DNA from: Chitinophagales bacterium
GTDB lineage: Bacteria; Bacteroidota; Bacteroidia; Chitinophagales; S012-47
Direction of reading: 5' to 3'
Assembly (NCBI GenBank): GCA_015487695.1
Contig: WFPF01000110.1
Coordinates: 1 to 62,665, forward strand
Length of the DNA stretch: 62,665 nucleotides
Shown: one piece after another, positions 42,184 through 50,223 of the stretch
How positions within the stretch are numbered: the first letter of the stretch is position 1
Layout of the letters: every line of letters starts with the position of its first letter
The notes under the pieces: generated by a model
The model's input: the letters and a program-made list of their open reading frames with translations, nothing else
The model's database searches: none
What the model was told of the DNA's origin: nothing
Position numbers and translations under genes: made by a program

Positions 42184-43638
42184 CTAGAATTTTGCAATTT
42201 TCATTGCATATCTTCTCCTGCCGTCTGAGACATGGAGAACATATATCCCTGAAGGCCACGAGCGCGTATCTATATCAAGCGACCGGCCTGTAATTGTCCT
42301 GCTCATATAAAGTCTGCCATCCATCGAATGGATGCTTATCTTTTTTCGCCCTGCTCCTTCCACGCTCAATATCCCCCCTTGTGAAAACGGATTGGGAAAG
42401 AAGCTGAAATTTAGCTCCGGCTTGTCTATCCCGAGATATCCCGAAAAGTCGAAAGGTTGGCCCCATTGCTCTATGGCTCTTTTGTAGTATTGCAGCCGCA
42501 GTGTTATTACGGTATCCATTCGCTCTTTCCGGCTGAAAATCAATCCCAGATTCTCTGCAAAAACAAGAGAGTCGGCACTCATTGCCGGCACGAGGCAGTT
42601 GGCACCGGGCATGCTTTTTTTATAAACCGTCCCCAGCGACTCCTGAAAGCGTGGCAGGGAATCCATAAAATGGCCTTCATGGGATACCCTGAAAAAGGTA
42701 TCCTGAGGCACAGCCAGGGCATATAAAGAAAGCTCTCCCCCGGCAGCATCCAAAAATCGGTATTGTGAGAGCAGGATTTGCTCCGATGTGCTGTCCAATA
42801 TGAAGCGGAACTCACCGCTGAGCAGGTCATGCAACTCTGCCACCCTCCTGTGTACGAGAAAGAGCGTATCTCCGGAAAGCCTGCGATCGATGGTCAGAAG
42901 AGAAATCTTTTCTTCCCGGATCGGAAGGCCTGAAAGAGAGTAGGTCTTTTTAAAATGCCGCTCATATCCGGGCCGGATATCGAAAATGGTCTGCGGATAG
43001 AGGCCGCGCACATCGGGGCCAATGAAAGGAACCGTAGTTCCCTTCAGCATATATGAAAAAGTATCTGTGGGAAATTGGTAGATATTGAAGATATCGTAAA
43101 AGCCAAGAAACTGGGTGATGCTGAAAGTGCGGTCCTGGAAGGGATGGGCGACCCGGTTTCCGTTCAGGTCCTGCACTTCGATGCGCTGAGTAATCAGGTT
43201 TTGAGAAACGCCCAGGATAGGATTTTCAAAGATATAAGACAAATCCTCATTCGTTACCACAAAGCGAAGCGAATCATTTTGCATGAGTAAATAGCTGGAA
43301 CCAATGCTGGCATTGACATCCACATGAAAACGCAGTGTATCGCCAAAGCGATTCAGATACCAATGATCCGTATAGGATTTTTTAATCATTTTGGCCCCGA
43401 GAAAAAAAGAATTTTGCTCGCTGAGCGCACAGCTGCTGTCTCCGCTTTTTTTCCACTGTCGGGGAAAATGGTAGACCGTGTCGCTGCCGCTTCCCTCAGT
43501 TATTTTAGTTGCATAGACACTGAAAAGCGTATCATTCCGTTCGTAAAATGCTTTATAGCCCGGGCGGTAGGTCTGAAAATTCTGTCCGGACAGAGATAGG
43601 AAAAAAGAGGAAAGGATTAAGACCAGAATCAAACGCAT
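42184..43638 (-). CDS. T9SS type A sorting domain protein, unknown function
   Basis: A 484-residue secreted protein. The signal peptide ends LSLSGQ (about 19). The body (about 20-395) is beta-rich with no domain I recognise. The tail (about 405-484, FSFFPNPFSQGGILSV, IYVLHVSDG, ending MKIAKF) is a T9SS type A sorting domain, so the product is exported across the outer membrane and probably anchored to the surface or released. Divergent from murB and convergent with the zinc-ribbon gene. TAAATTTA at about 43655 may be its -7 element. Confidence 0.85.
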   Translation of the reverse strand: MRLILVLILSSFFLSLSGQNFQTYRPGYKAFYERNDTLFSVYATKITEGSGSDTVYHFPRQWKKSGDSSCALSEQNSFFLGAKMIKKSYTDHWYLNRFGDTLRFHVDVNASIGSSYLLMQNDSLRFVVTNEDLSYIFENPILGVSQNLITQRIEVQDLNGNRVAHPFQDRTFSITQFLGFYDIFNIYQFPTDTFSYMLKGTTVPFIGPDVRGLYPQTIFDIRPGYERHFKKTYSLSGLPIREEKISLLTIDRRLSGDTLFLVHRRVAELHDLLSGEFRFILDSTSEQILLSQYRFLDAAGGELSLYALAVPQDTFFRVSHEGHFMDSLPRFQESLGTVYKKSMPGANCLVPAMSADSLVFAENLGLIFSRKERMDTVITLRLQYYKRAIEQWGQPFDFSGYLGIDKPELNFSFFPNPFSQGGILSVEGAGRKKISIHSMDGRLYMSRTITGRSLDIDTRSWPSGIYVLHVSDGRRRYAMKIAKF

Positions 43639-44752: not shown

Positions 44753-46246
44753 TTAGAAATTCACACCGAGTGTAAAAATGAGATTGTAGCTGTTTTGGTC
44801 GACCAAAGCGCCACCGACAGTTTCATCCGGATTGTTCAGCGTATAGGGCACATAGGCATAATCCGTCACCGTGTTCTGAAAAGCGGCATCGGCAAAGAAG
44901 TATTTCGACCGGAAGCCCACACCCAAAGAATATCCGGCTCCCGCATAGTCAGCCTGATCAGAGGGCTTGTAAGCATCTGTAAATACACTGCTCTTCCAAA
45001 AAGCTCCTGCACGCAGCCTCAGCCCCTTTATTGAAGCCTCTGCGCCCACTTTTACCCGGTAGACCCGTTGGTACTTATCGGAGATACTCGTATTCAGTTC
45101 ATTTTCGTACACCTTCGACCCGCCATCCGTAAAATAGTACCTCGTAGCGCCCGGATCGTAACTCTCCAATTCAGCGGCAATCAGTCCTTTCTTTCCAAAC
45201 AACTTCGCTGCACTGAACATCATCTTCATGGGTGTGATAAGCGTATAGGAGAATCGTCCGGGCAGTGTCTCATACGTATATTGATCACTTTCAAGGTCGG
45301 ATTGCATATCTGCATAAAAGCGGTCTTCGAAACTGAGATAGCCCGGTGAGTGAAGGGCAGCTCCGACACGCAAAGTGGGAGTGACCCAGTAAATCATTCC
45401 AAATTTCAGATTAACTCCGCTGGCTTCGGATGTCAGATACTGATTGAAAGTGTAGCTGCTGAAGTCCGCTATGCTATCCATGAAGTCTTCTTCGCTAAAA
45501 CTTTTGGTCTCCTGATACTTAACCCCGGGAAAATTAAGACTGGCCCCGATGAAGAGCTTGTCGTTGTAATTGCCTCCTACTGCGAATACAAGTTCACGCA
45601 TTCTGCCTTTGGTATTGATATTGACTGTCTGCCGTGCTCCACCATAAGGTATTTTGGATACAAAGCGGGTTGTATCATTCGGAGCGGGATCGAGCAGGTA
45701 CGTTTCATATGCCAGGCCCGCATCGTAAGGGAAAGAAGAAAAGACATCTCCGGGCGGGGTGCCGCCATTGGCATTGAGTTTTTCCGTGAATTGCTCGAGC
45801 ATCGAGTTGTACGGATTGACACCGGTAAAGGAAAGATTGTTGCGGTAATTTGCCAGACGATTCACACCAAAGCCATAGTTTACAAAGCGCCAGCCTTTTT
45901 CCTTTCCCTGTTTCTTTTTGCGTGCAATCACCAATCCCCCATTCGGAAAATAGAGGTAAGCCTTTCCTGAGCTGCTCTTTGTTCCGAAGAAAGATGCCGA
46001 GTTATCATATGCAAAAAAGCCTCCACTCGAAGTGATAGAGGAATGGCGATAGACGCCAATTCCACCCGGGTTGCTGCTCAGCGTGGTAAAATCAGCACCG
46101 AGGGCTCCAAATGCTCCTCCGATTCCCACATATCGTGCTGTACCCAAATTCTGGGTGCTTGCATATCTAAGGGCCTCCACATCGGACTGTGCCTGCATCA
46201 AAGCAGATACAGCAAGGGCTATGACAATGAATATTGACCGTCTCAT
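44753..46246 (-). CDS. FadL/OmpP1/TodX-like outer membrane transport protein
   Basis: A 497-residue outer membrane barrel. The signal peptide ends SALMQAQ. The mature N-terminus has the family feature LRYASTQNLGTARYVGIGG and TLSSNPGGIGVYR, a plug-like segment. About fourteen amphipathic strands follow, and the protein ends NLIFTLGVNF. The family carries hydrophobic molecules such as fatty acids across the outer membrane. It follows the Tyr-rich/RS-rich lipoprotein gene by 19 bp on the same strand, so the two are likely cotranscribed. Confidence 0.88.
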   Translation of the reverse strand: MRRSIFIVIALAVSALMQAQSDVEALRYASTQNLGTARYVGIGGAFGALGADFTTLSSNPGGIGVYRHSSITSSGGFFAYDNSASFFGTKSSSGKAYLYFPNGGLVIARKKKQGKEKGWRFVNYGFGVNRLANYRNNLSFTGVNPYNSMLEQFTEKLNANGGTPPGDVFSSFPYDAGLAYETYLLDPAPNDTTRFVSKIPYGGARQTVNINTKGRMRELVFAVGGNYNDKLFIGASLNFPGVKYQETKSFSEEDFMDSIADFSSYTFNQYLTSEASGVNLKFGMIYWVTPTLRVGAALHSPGYLSFEDRFYADMQSDLESDQYTYETLPGRFSYTLITPMKMMFSAAKLFGKKGLIAAELESYDPGATRYYFTDGGSKVYENELNTSISDKYQRVYRVKVGAEASIKGLRLRAGAFWKSSVFTDAYKPSDQADYAGAGYSLGVGFRSKYFFADAAFQNTVTDYAYVPYTLNNPDETVGGALVDQNSYNLIFTLGVNF

Positions 46247-46265: not shown

Positions 46266-47921
46266 TTATCTGGGACCTCTCAGGCGAGGGGACGAACTGC
46301 TCCGGCTTCCCGAGGAACCTGAACGAACCGAGCGGGAAGGCGATGAATAGTTCGATGAAGACCTGTTGCTTCCCGATCGCGAGGGAGAAGAATAACTGCG
46401 CGACTTTGAAGGAGGAGTATAACTTTTTGAGGGACTGCTGCTTCGCGGTGTGCTGCTTTCATTCCTTCTGATACTTCTCTTCGGAGAAGTTGTTGATCTT
46501 CCGGGCGATGACGACCTGCGCTCCTGCAACTGCCTGGGAGAAGATATGCTTCGGTCGCGTTTTCTTTCCGGGGTGCTGATATTTCGGCCCGGGGTGCTTC
46601 TTTCCTGACGAACGCCTGTTCTCCTGTTCACCCCTTCGCTTCTGCGAATTCTACGTTCCGGTCTGCTATTTCCCTTGCCCGAGACATTACCCGAAGGACT
46701 GTTGCTGCCATTTCTTTCATAGGAATGACGCACACTGTTGCCCGAAGGACTTTCCGTCCGTCTGTTCGAATTGTATTGTCGCGACTTATATCTTTTCCAT
46801 TCATTCTGCCGACTGTTGCGGGGGCTCAGCTTGCCTGATTTGCTGCCGGTATTGGAACTGCCATTGATCAGTGATCCCTTGCTTCCGCGGGGAGCTTTCG
46901 TCTCACCCTGGCGATGCAATGTTTGCGTTGACCCACTTCCCGTAGGACTTACGGTGCGAATACCGCTGACGGATTCACCTCCGCGTTTCGACAGTTCGTT
47001 CCCTTTTCGATTGTCAAAGTAACTGTTTCCAACCCTGCCCGGGTTATCGGCTTTATTCATACTGACGTTGCGGTTCTCTGCTGTCAGTTGACCGCTGTTT
47101 GCACTCGCACTATTCACAGCGTTGCGATTCCCGCCTTTGCCGCTGCCGTCATTTTTACCGTACTGTATCGTTGAACGTTGTCCGCGCATGCCGCTGTTGC
47201 TGCCGCTATTATTGGCAAAGCGCGGGCCGTAATAATAATCCGTTGGGGTGTAGGTTTCAGAATACCCATAGTTGTTGTAGCCGTTATTATATCCATATCC
47301 GCTGTAACCTGTATAGAAATTCGAACCATAGAAAAAGCCGTCATTGAATCCATTCCAGTATCCGTAATTATATCCGGAGTAGAAAGAAGAGTAGTAAGGA
47401 TCATACCATGGCCGGTAATACCAGGAGTTAAAAGGTCTGTAAGAGTAGAAGAAAGGATCGCGCCAGCCCCAGCCGGGATTGCCCCAACTCACATAGATAC
47501 TCACGCCTGAGTAGTAGGGATCATACCATCTGTAATCGGTGTAGCATGAGCCGAAGTAACTGAAGCCGAGATACGGGCGGCTAAATCGTCTGATTCTTGA
47601 AGAGTAATAATAATCATACGGCTCATCGTAATAATCTCCGTAGTAATTATTAGTAATGTACGTATTGCCGCCTTCATTATATTCTTCACCGTCACCGCTG
47701 TAATCCTCATATCCATATTCCTCTTCAGACTCGTATTTGCTGCTTTGCTCATTGCCTTCATACCTGGCAGAAGTGCGTGCTTCCTCTTGCTTTATATCCT
47801 CGAGATAAACCTCGGAACCATCGTAATAAACATCGTCATAGGAGGTGCTGCTTCGGTAGGAACTGGAACATCCCGAAGCGATGAGCAGAAGCGCAGCGAT
47901 AATGGTGTAGATAGCTTTCAT
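46266..47921 (-). CDS. Low-complexity lipoprotein with Tyr-rich and Arg-Ser-rich domains
   Basis: A 551-residue protein that I do not place in a family. The leader ends LLLIASGC (Cys 18), a lipobox. Residues about 19-87 are acidic and Ser/Glu/Tyr-rich. Residues 88-235 are strikingly aromatic (Tyr, Trp, Phe with Gly, Asn, Asp, Pro; repeats such as YDPYY and NGY). Residues about 236-385 are Asn/Gly/Ser-rich. Residues about 385-551 are basic and made of Arg, Ser and Pro with many RS, SPSR and SSSP units, looking like a eukaryotic SR-protein tail. It shares a transcript with the FadL-like barrel gene downstream. Adhesive, extracellular-matrix or wall/LPS-binding roles are guesses. Confidence 0.8.
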   Translation of the reverse strand: MKAIYTIIAALLLIASGCSSSYRSSTSYDDVYYDGSEVYLEDIKQEEARTSARYEGNEQSSKYESEEEYGYEDYSGDGEEYNEGGNTYITNNYYGDYYDEPYDYYYSSRIRRFSRPYLGFSYFGSCYTDYRWYDPYYSGVSIYVSWGNPGWGWRDPFFYSYRPFNSWYYRPWYDPYYSSFYSGYNYGYWNGFNDGFFYGSNFYTGYSGYGYNNGYNNYGYSETYTPTDYYYGPRFANNSGSNSGMRGQRSTIQYGKNDGSGKGGNRNAVNSASANSGQLTAENRNVSMNKADNPGRVGNSYFDNRKGNELSKRGGESVSGIRTVSPTGSGSTQTLHRQGETKAPRGSKGSLINGSSNTGSKSGKLSPRNSRQNEWKRYKSRQYNSNRRTESPSGNSVRHSYERNGSNSPSGNVSGKGNSRPERRIRRSEGVNRRTGVRQERSTPGRNISTPERKRDRSISSPRQLQERRSSSPGRSTTSPKRSIRRNESSTPRSSSPSKSYTPPSKSRSYSSPSRSGSNRSSSNYSSPSRSVRSGSSGSRSSSSPRLRGPR

Positions 47922-48033: not shown

Positions 48034-49509
48034 ATGGCTAAAGATTTAACAAGCAGAAATGAAGATTATGCCAAATGGTACAACGAGTTGGTAATAAAAT
48101 CAGGCCTTGCAGACTATTCAGCGGTGAGGGGCTGTATGGTAATAAAACCCTACGGATATTCCATCTGGGAAGAGATGAAGCAATATCTGGACAGGCGCTT
48201 TAAGGAAACGGGACATCAAAATGCATCCTTTCCCCTTCTGATACCCAAAAGCTTTTTTGCACGGGAAGCCAAACATGTCGAAGGCTTTGCCAAAGAGTGT
48301 GCGGTAGTCACTCACTACCGGCTCAAGGAGTCGCCCGATGGCGAAGGTCTGATTGTAGACCCTGATGCCAAACTGGAAGAAGAGCTCATTGTACGTCCGA
48401 CATCCGAAACCATCATCTGGAATACCTATAAAGACTGGATTCAGTCCTATCGCGATCTGCCTTTGCTGATCAATCAGTGGGCCAACGTGGTACGTTGGGA
48501 GATGCGCACAAGATTGTTTCTGCGCACTGCCGAATTTTTCTGGCAGGAAGGGCATACGGCCCACGAAAGCAAGAAGGAAGCCGTGGAGGAATCAAGGATG
48601 ATTCTTGATCTCTATGCCGATTTCATGGAAAATATCATGGCGGTGCCGGTAATTAAAGGAGTAAAAACAGAGAGCGAACGATTTGCCGGAGCCGAAGACA
48701 CCTTTACAGTCGAGGCCCTGATGCAGGATGGCAAAGCACTGCAAATGGGAACCTCACATTTTCTGGGTCAGAATTTTGCCAAAGCTTTTGATGTAAAATA
48801 TCTGAGCAAAGAAGGCAAGGAGGAATATGTATGGGCAACTTCCTGGGGTGTATCCACTCGAATGATGGGCGCCCTCGTGATGGTTCATGGCGATGACAAC
48901 GGCCTGATTATACCGCCCAAACTGGCTCCGGTGCATGTGGTCATGGTGCCTATTTACAGAAAGGAAGAACAGCTGGCGCAAATAAGGGAAGTGGCGGATA
49001 AACTGAAAGCCGAGCTGGATGCCATGGGCATCGTAATGAAATTTGACGATCGCGACAATTACCGGCCGGGCTGGAAATTCAACGAATATGAGTTGCAGGG
49101 CGTGCCTTTGCGAATTGCCATCGGACCGCGGGACCTTGAAAATGAGAGCGTGGAACTTGCCAGAAGAGATACACTGGAGAAAACAACTGTTTCGCTGGCC
49201 GGTTTGAGCACAAGGATTCAAACACTGCTTGATGAGATTCAGCAAAATATGTTTGAAAAAGCCCGTTCATTTCGAGAAAAGAACACCCACTATGCTGACA
49301 GCTACGAAGAGTTCAAGGAGATCATAAAAAACAAAGGCGGCTTTGTCTATGCCCATTGGGACGGCAGTGCCGAAACCGAGGAAAAAATCAAACAGGAAAC
49401 AAAGGCCAGCATTCGTTGCATTCCGCTTGACGGAGAACCGGAAGAAGGCAGTTGCATGATAAGTGGCAAGCCTTCCAAACAGCGCGTGATCTTTGCCAAA
49501 GCGTATTAA
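48034..49509 (+). CDS. proS: Prolyl-tRNA synthetase, archaeal/eukaryotic-like type
   Basis: A 491-residue class II synthetase charging tRNA-Pro. It is the short ProS type without the bacterial editing insertion: it runs [25 protein letters not shown], motif 1 ([10 protein letters not shown]), motif 2 ([14 protein letters not shown]) and motif 3 ([15 protein letters not shown]). An anticodon-binding domain and a C-terminal zinc-binding-like domain follow. The ATG at 48034 fits the family; the in-frame ATG at 47980 adds 18 residues with no match. It is followed after 12 bp by a gene of unknown function on the same strand. Confidence 0.95.
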
Positions 49510-49521
49510 ATCGGGGGCATT

Positions 49522-50223
49522 ATGAATAAGGAAGGAATTGACCGGATTGTTGAGGAACTGAAAGCGAGAAGCATTCCAAAGCAGGATGTGTTTCAAAATA
49601 CGCAGACACACTTTTCGGCATTCAAAGAGAAGATCAAAGCTGTAGCCGGTGCCCTTCGTGAGAAGATGGAAAAGATCGATAAACGCATTGATGTGAAAGT
49701 GGTGGAGGAAGAAGCTTTCGCTATTTATCTGAAAATTGCCGGAGATACCATTGTATGCAGCATGCACTCCAATGTGTTTACCTTTCCCAAAGAGCATCCG
49801 CTCTTCAAGAAAAGCTACATAGAAGAAGACCCTACACGCATTTATTGCGGTATGATCACTTTTCATAATTTTCTTTCTGACAGCTTTCGCTACAAGCGCC
49901 TCAATGACCAGGGTATTCTGGTGGCCCGCATATTTATCAATCGGGAAAATCACTTTTTCGTGGAGGGACACAGGCAACTCGGATTCCTGTATAACGACAT
50001 TGAGCACATGGAAATGAATGATGTATTTCTTGATGCCATCATCGAAAGTGCCATTCTCTATTCATTGGACTTTGAGTTGCAGGCTCCGCCCTTCGATAAA
50101 GAAAGTCAGATCAGCATTCAGGAGATGCGTTTCATGACGGCCCAGGCCGGTTTCAGAACAAATAAGATCCTTGGATACGAGTTTAGCTACATGAAAGAAG
50201 ACAAAGAACCTCCCAAAGCTTAG
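49522..50223 (+). CDS. Conserved-looking cytoplasmic protein of unknown function
   Basis: A 233-residue soluble protein with no signal peptide and no motif I recognise. The first 70 residues are helical and charged (VEELKARSIP, HFSAFKEKIKAVAGALREKM). The middle is an alpha/beta region with IVCSMHSNVFTF, RIYCGMITFHNF and GILVARIFINREN. The end has EMRFMTAQAG. It lies 12 bp after proS and probably shares its transcript; it may be a Bacteroidota-specific partner of it. The stop overlaps folA by 4 bp. Confidence 0.7.
   Translation: MNKEGIDRIVEELKARSIPKQDVFQNTQTHFSAFKEKIKAVAGALREKMEKIDKRIDVKVVEEEAFAIYLKIAGDTIVCSMHSNVFTFPKEHPLFKKSYIEEDPTRIYCGMITFHNFLSDSFRYKRLNDQGILVARIFINRENHFFVEGHRQLGFLYNDIEHMEMNDVFLDAIIESAILYSLDFELQAPPFDKESQISIQEMRFMTAQAGFRTNKILGYEFSYMKEDKEPPKA

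Follow-up and report, generated by a model that had tools for sequence, protein, structure and literature searches.

What does a bacterium do with a secreted protein of low complexity whose gene is followed, after 19 bp, by a gene for an outer-membrane barrel? The question is raised by a contig of a Chitinophagales bacterium (GenBank assembly GCA_015487695.1, contig WFPF01000110.1), of which the stretch of 62,665 nucleotides analysed here is called the window. The first gene of the pair (46266..47921, minus strand) is an ATG-initiated ORF of 551 aa encoding a predicted lipoprotein, predicted to be disordered and present in one copy in its own genome. Its signal peptide (47868..47921, minus strand) ends in a lipobox-like LLLIASGC with its cysteine at residue 18, in line with the lipobox leader seen in an earlier note on this DNA. 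The second gene (44753..46246, minus strand) encodes a protein of 497 aa. The earlier note had described four compositional blocks in the lipoprotein, compared its tail with eukaryotic Arg-Ser domains, and suggested that such blocks might form a cohesive or adhesive layer in the envelope or bind anionic LPS or DNA; below we ask which of these readings hold and what the two genes may do together.

The four blocks are all present, as both their composition and shuffling show. An acidic block (residues 29–100; 47622..47837, minus strand) has a net charge of −19 and 32% D/E; an aromatic block rich in Y/W/F and G/N (residues 101–235; 47217..47621, minus strand) contains 40% Y/W/F and 20% G/N; a polar N/G/S linker (residues 236–385; 46767..47216, minus strand) has 29% G/N, 17% S and a charge of +17; and a basic Ser/Arg/Pro tail (residues 386–551, 166 aa; 46269..46766, minus strand) carries a charge of +30 with 23% R/K, 31% S and 10% P. 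When the mature chain of the window protein was shuffled 2000 times, none of the shuffles reached the aromatic maximum of 42 per 100 residues (shuffle mean 21.5) or the acidic charge of −16 in 60 residues (mean −4.5), and one reached the basic charge of +31 in 160 residues (mean 18.2). No DNA tandem repeats were found in the window. The AlphaFold2 (AF2) model of the protein has a pLDDT of 46.1 and a pTM of 0.27, its helices being the signal helix and residues 104–113, over the SRIRRF motif; the model suggests an unfolded or disordered chain, low pLDDT being no proof of disorder. The protein has no significant family match in Pfam or NCBIfam. Sequence searches of the PDB gave matches only at E 0.16 and 0.23 for the whole protein, and only at E 0.14 and 2.5 for a profile (A3) of its N-terminal 139 residues and 41 homologues.

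Genomic context revealed many more homologues than a pairwise search did. Pairwise search with the window protein found it in 27 of the order's 59 genomes, counting that of the window itself, and the barrel was found in 56 of 59. Of the 55 barrel loci from other genomes, 54 were fetched (G007, whose barrel is cut by the contig start, was omitted), and in 50 of the 54 a gene for the protein lies directly upstream of the barrel on the same strand; low-complexity sequence had thus hidden the pair from the pairwise search. Among the other four loci, the contigs of two (L068 and L091) begin inside or near the gene, and in two genomes (G053 and G035) the best barrel match lies elsewhere. In the window the lipoprotein gene has as its divergent upstream neighbour proS, encoding prolyl-tRNA synthetase (48034..49509, plus strand; Pfam ProRS-C_1 at 1e-25, tRNA-synt_2b and HGTP_anticodon), and 42 of the 50 loci that have the pair share this arrangement. 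On the other side, the gene that follows the barrel in the window, murB, served as a control; it is present in only 4 of the 50 order loci with room for it. The two genes thus stay together where the gene beyond the barrel changes, and their conservation exceeds that of their surroundings on the murB side. On the proS side, homologues of the gene beyond proS (49522-50223, plus strand, uncharacterised, with Pfam matches only at chance level, 0.14) lie beyond proS in 11 of the 41 order loci with room, and matches to it occur in 52 of 98 class loci. We take proS as the divergent neighbour that marks a conserved locus and claim no functional part for it. Beyond murB from the barrel, the window also holds a gene (42184-43638, minus strand) whose product has a type IX secretion sorting domain (Por_Secre_tail, 2.9e-7).

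The same arrangement extends through the class. Profile A3 matches 101 of 149 class genomes, mostly once each, and 98 of these loci were fetched; three further matches (G000, G019 and G047) had entered the analysis with the order loci. In 84 of the 98 the barrel follows directly downstream, and in one more at a distance of 848 bp; four of the remaining loci reach a contig end, six have room but no barrel, and in three the ORF was not refound. In 95 class loci proS is divergent in 76, lost to a contig end in two and absent in 17. The barrel profile matches 134 of the 149 class genomes (E 1e-30), as a single-copy gene, and the two proteins occur together: the protein profile matches 100 of the 134 genomes with a barrel and one of the 15 without (Fisher p 3.4e-7, ignoring relatedness). 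That one genome is G093, in which the contig ends just after the gene. Linkage is not obligatory, as both genes are kept, apart from each other and with the barrel elsewhere, in G135, G168 (f60), G138, G171, G201 (f64) and G035. In all four genomes of family f33 (G069, G113, G149 and G181) neither protein nor barrel was found at the thresholds used, a candidate case of joint loss.

We also looked upstream of the barrel in 20 further genomes, most of them without a profile match (three, G035, G347 and G339, did have one), and found a signal-peptide-bearing low-complexity protein in 19; the exception is G035, where the barrel has moved. G339 belongs to another class of the phylum, and here protein and barrel are separated by a second short lipoprotein gene (locus L342). 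In a sample of the phylum the profile matches 13 of 198 genomes, an undercount, as motif variants such as DG[VI]Y fall below the threshold. Among named genomes 144 relatives were confirmed, and 80 loci were kept; where there is room, the barrel is downstream in 67 of 73 and proS is divergent in 71 of 76. Cultured carriers include Neolewinella aquimaris, N. marina, N. xylanilytica, Lewinella and Phaeodactylibacter luteus, and carriers among metagenome-assembled genomes are labelled Saprospiraceae, Chitinophagales, Bacteroidales and, in one case, Flavobacteriales. The pair occurs in cultured Saprospiraceae and in many uncultured lineages, and most of the class that was examined has it.

The homologues share a series of short anchors set in otherwise variable sequence. 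The most conserved is DDVYY (residues 29–33; 47823..47837, minus strand), nearly invariant and our proposed docking peptide: in alignments A2 and A3 (48 and 42, respectively, of the 54 order proteins, window included; short, cut and very divergent ones were omitted) D29 and Y32 are invariant and D30 is kept in at least 90%. The order-level proteins were chosen as upstream ORFs with D-D-x-Y (L075 and L083 were added by hand, and L115, a second stretch of G002 cut at the contig end, was dropped from the protein counts), so its presence in 53 of 53 order proteins is circular. The evidence for the motif comes from listings that did not require it: upstream ORFs of the order loci repeatedly show a signal peptide and then DD[VIL]Y, and the 19 upstream proteins of the further genomes carry D[DGN][VILM]Y in 18 cases and DDYY in one (G339). 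From the N-terminus onward the alignments show DD[VIL]Y(Y), GNTYITNNYY, SR[IL]RRF, the aromatic stretch, a GPR-like motif and a basic end as recurring anchors. In the window GNTYITNNYY, seen in alignments A2 and A4, occupies residues 85–94 (47640..47669, minus strand); SSRIRRF (residues 107–113; 47583..47603, minus strand), also recovered in the alignments, stands at the start of the aromatic block and overlaps the predicted helix at 104–113; and YGPR (residues 231–234; 47220..47231, minus strand), GPR-like in homologues, ends the block. Among the 53 order and 95 class proteins, GNTYIT-like motifs occur in 30 and 41, respectively, R[LIMV]xRF-like motifs in 37 and 75, GPR-like motifs in 46 and 75, and R or K among the last three residues in 49 and 91; DDxY, R[LI]xRF and the GPR-like motif are all present and in this order in 35 of the 53 and 53 of the 95. 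The order of the blocks is conserved as well: among proteins with a measurable aromatic block (52 order, 95 class), 36 and 74, respectively, have an acidic block and a basic tail around it. The aromatic block is missing from one order protein (L107, 128 aa).

Lipidation is much less constant than the motif. Of the 95 class proteins 74 have a lipobox, but only 18 of the 53 order proteins do, so lipidation is not conserved across homologues; three of the 35 order proteins scored as lacking one (L064, L065 and L082) owe this to a start chosen too far downstream. In proteins without a lipobox DDxY comes just after the predicted cleavage site, and in those with one its median distance from the cysteine is 11–12 residues. 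As judged from these sequences, the family is defined by the DD[VIL]Y motif and not by the lipid. The motif itself was considered as a lipoprotein export signal and ruled out by its position, 8–14 residues from the cysteine in the order set; the signal described for Bacteroidota consists of at least two acidic residues within six after the cysteine (PMC12578637; related surface-lipoprotein signals are given in PMC5080379). By that definition only one of 92 lipobox-bearing homologues carries a surface-export signal, and the window protein has no acidic residue among the six after Cys18. The absence of the usual signal, a rule tested in few species, points to a chain that begins on the periplasmic side and probably faces the periplasm.

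This bears on the cohesive or adhesive layer suggested in the earlier note. As a surface layer, the chain would be exposed outside the cell, its aromatic and basic blocks would glue cells or bind LPS or DNA, and the barrel would aid its export. In favour of this are a composition like that of cohesive low-complexity proteins, the strongly basic tail, and the fact that FadL-type barrels such as PorV and BamG do handle surface proteins. The rarity of the export signal argues against such a layer, as does a near-universal presence in the class that would be unusual for an adhesin. With lipidation not conserved and the published signal absent, a surface layer no longer serves as the default reading, and we consider it unlikely, although it is the strongest of the competitors to the docking reading developed below.

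Sequence constraint was estimated against the closest relative, G001. The dN/dS ratio is ∼0.17 over the protein as a whole and ∼0.05 in the barrel, and dN is well below dS in each block for which dS could be estimated: the ratio is 0.34 in the linker (dN 0.37, dS 1.10), the fastest-evolving block of the window protein, and 0.19 in the tail (dN 0.19, dS 0.98); in the aromatic block dN is 0.12 and synonymous sites are saturated. The earlier note had left room for a drifting low-complexity protein should block order or the barrel neighbour not be conserved; synteny, profile matches and dN/dS together rule this out. The aromatic block grows by small repeats, as seen in the same-genus relative G001 (L060), where it contains a run of GWGWGNP-type repeats and is longer than that of the window protein. 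In L072, L095 and L080 the tails contain long near-identical tandem repeats of Pro-rich units, which differ from lineage to lineage. The ratio of 0.19 indicates that the tail is under selection, though it varies by repeats between lineages.

The tail does not fit its comparison with eukaryotic Arg-Ser domains. The earlier note's basic Arg-Ser-Pro block of about 165 residues exists as an Arg/Ser-rich composition; it is not an alternating RS domain, as 18 RS/SR pairs are seen in the tail against 20.9 expected (18 or more arise in 4116 of 5000 shuffles of this tail), and this dipeptide test rules out a domain of the eukaryotic type. Nor is RS richness a conserved trait, as only 29 of 148 homologues have at least 10 RS/SR pairs in their last 120 residues. 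A more fitting description of the window protein's tail is a lineage-specific form of a basic, Ser-rich tail.

The second gene of the pair had been called FadL/OmpP1-like, and its predicted fold agrees. The AF2 model of the barrel has a pLDDT of 90.4 and a pTM of 0.85. A Foldseek search with this model ranks BamG of Bacteroides thetaiotaomicron first (6.1e-20), ahead of FadL-family transporters and of BamG from P. gingivalis and F. johnsoniae. VIA-align gives Z values of ∼30-34.5 for CymD, TbuX, FadL, TodX and BamG chains (rows within 1 being tied) and 25.9 for PorV (6h3i_F). The sequence signal is more uneven. A profile of 45 barrels (alignment A1, from the 55 barrels at hand, window included) matches a Pseudomonas FadL homologue (1.5e-8) and TbuX (1.3e-7), more weakly PorV (0.0012) and CymD (0.6), and BamG was not among its matches at E 10. 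The window barrel has no significant Pfam match, and at E 0.01 it matches neither PF03349 (Toluene_X) nor any NCBIfam family; among the 45 relatives PF03349 matches 17 (best 2.8e-15) and, at E 0.01, the NCBIfam models PorV_fam, BamG and PorV match 18, 6 (best 1.7e-9) and 3, respectively. N59 and P60 of an NPA-type hatch motif are invariant in the 45 barrels. The modelled fold confirms that the barrel belongs to the FadL family, near BamG, PorV and FadL.

Two more specific identities were tried and rejected. The barrel is not BamG: it does not match NF053685 (cut-off 250 bits) at E 0.01, and a separate BamG is encoded on C103 of the same genome (278.8 bits). It is not PorV/PorQ either, with NF033709 (cut-off 90 bits) unmatched at E 0.01; the genome has a PorV2-type protein and a PorV/PorQ-family protein elsewhere, on C93 and C103. 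PorV and PorQ, of type IX secretion, share the FadL-family fold with the window barrel, and PorV handles secreted proteins; they are 330–400 aa long, compared with ∼500 aa here. The FadL/OmpP1/TodX (Toluene_X) proteins share the fold and a hatch with an NPA-type motif, whereas the N-terminal extension and the coupling to a gene for a disordered protein are found on the window side. The extension was seen in structural alignments: alignments of the barrel model with BamG and PorV chains begin at its residue 22 (23 in one PorV row), and those with canonical FadL-family chains almost always begin at residues 26–31, two deletion mutants giving 32 and 36. It thus seems, from the model, that the barrel carries a BamG/PorV-like N-terminal extension.

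These comparisons also frame a second competitor, in which the barrel would be a canonical FadL uptake channel that imports hydrophobic compounds, with the aromatic block as a periplasmic catcher that receives them. FadL, TodX, TbuX and CymD chains align with the barrel at Z values of ∼30-34.5, the hatch motif is kept in the barrel alignment, and an aromatic block would suit such a role. On the other hand, in BamG the N-terminal extension passes through and fills the lateral opening that transporters use (PMC12578637, PMC12611786), and a near-universal single-copy gene is more like a housekeeping gene than one for substrate uptake; we regard this channel as improbable and rank it behind the surface layer.

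The closest precedent for the pair is BamG–BamH of the Bacteroidota BAM complex, in which a FadL-type barrel holds the conserved N-terminus of the lipoprotein BamH (PMC12611786, PMC12578637). The structures of F. johnsoniae (9N2D), B. thetaiotaomicron (9HIV) and P. gingivalis (9HJM) resemble the window pair in combining a FadL-family barrel with a partner protein; BamH, like the window protein, has a highly conserved segment near its N-terminus, and BamG, like the window barrel, has an N-terminal extension, B. thetaiotaomicron BamG being the best Foldseek match. The two pairs are not orthologous, and BamH is folded whereas the window partner is predicted to be disordered; nor is the window pair known to be linked to BamA. 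By analogy with this system we propose, tentatively and at somewhat less than an even chance, that the two genes form an outer-membrane unit in which DD[VIL]Y docks a disordered, probably periplasm-facing protein on its own barrel. The near-N-terminal motif, kept with or without a lipid, would dock the protein much as BamH docks on BamG, and the start of the chain would face the periplasm. Its disordered, Tyr/Gly/Asn-rich aromatic stretch may have a cohesive or chaperone-like role, and the partner of the basic tail may be an anionic polymer of the envelope (lipid A phosphates, peptidoglycan or phospholipid). Docking is the more likely step, compared with the binding roles of the aromatic and basic blocks. 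For the aromatic composition, extracellular loop 3 of Bacteroidota BamA, a flexible Tyr/Gly/Asn-rich loop of 38 residues (PMC12578637), offers a precedent at the outer membrane and no more; it is a loop of a barrel, whereas the window protein is separate, and no homology is claimed.

The docking model draws support from the adjacency of the two genes in order, class and named loci, from their co-occurrence and from selection in the estimable blocks. It is further supported by a motif that outlives the lipid anchor, and by the BamG/PorV-like N-terminal extension of the barrel together with the BamG–BamH precedent. Against it stand the split loci and the lipoprotein gene inserted between the pair in G339; the order of proS and the protein gene also shares the conservation, which may reflect general stability of the locus. 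Last among the competitors, and doubtful, is genomic hitchhiking of three conserved genes in an old stable locus, with two envelope proteins that do not interact: proS, surely no partner, adjoins the protein gene almost as often as the barrel does and the gene beyond proS is partly conserved too, whereas the same-strand order, the short gap and the co-occurrence of protein and barrel speak for a pair.

A bolder form of the docking proposal would place the pair as a third FadL-barrel machine beside BamG–BamH and PorV, the near-universal barrel holding the disordered aromatic chain at the outer membrane as a flexible chaperone or sieve for the assembly of outer-membrane proteins or lipids, with the tail tethered to an anionic polymer; we offer this as a speculation, less probable than any of the readings above.

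The FadL fold and the theme of a FadL-type barrel with a partner are already known. We found no description of this pair in the open-access literature searched (subscription papers and preprints were outside its scope), and within that literature and the libraries searched the partner family and its near-universality are undescribed. Rather than a eukaryotic-style oddity, the pair seems to be a component of the outer membrane of these relatives among the Bacteroidota that has so far escaped study. The genomes with split loci (f60 and f64) offer a natural experiment on the importance of linkage. Should the docking model hold, FadL-type barrels would be a general dock for envelope proteins in Bacteroidota.
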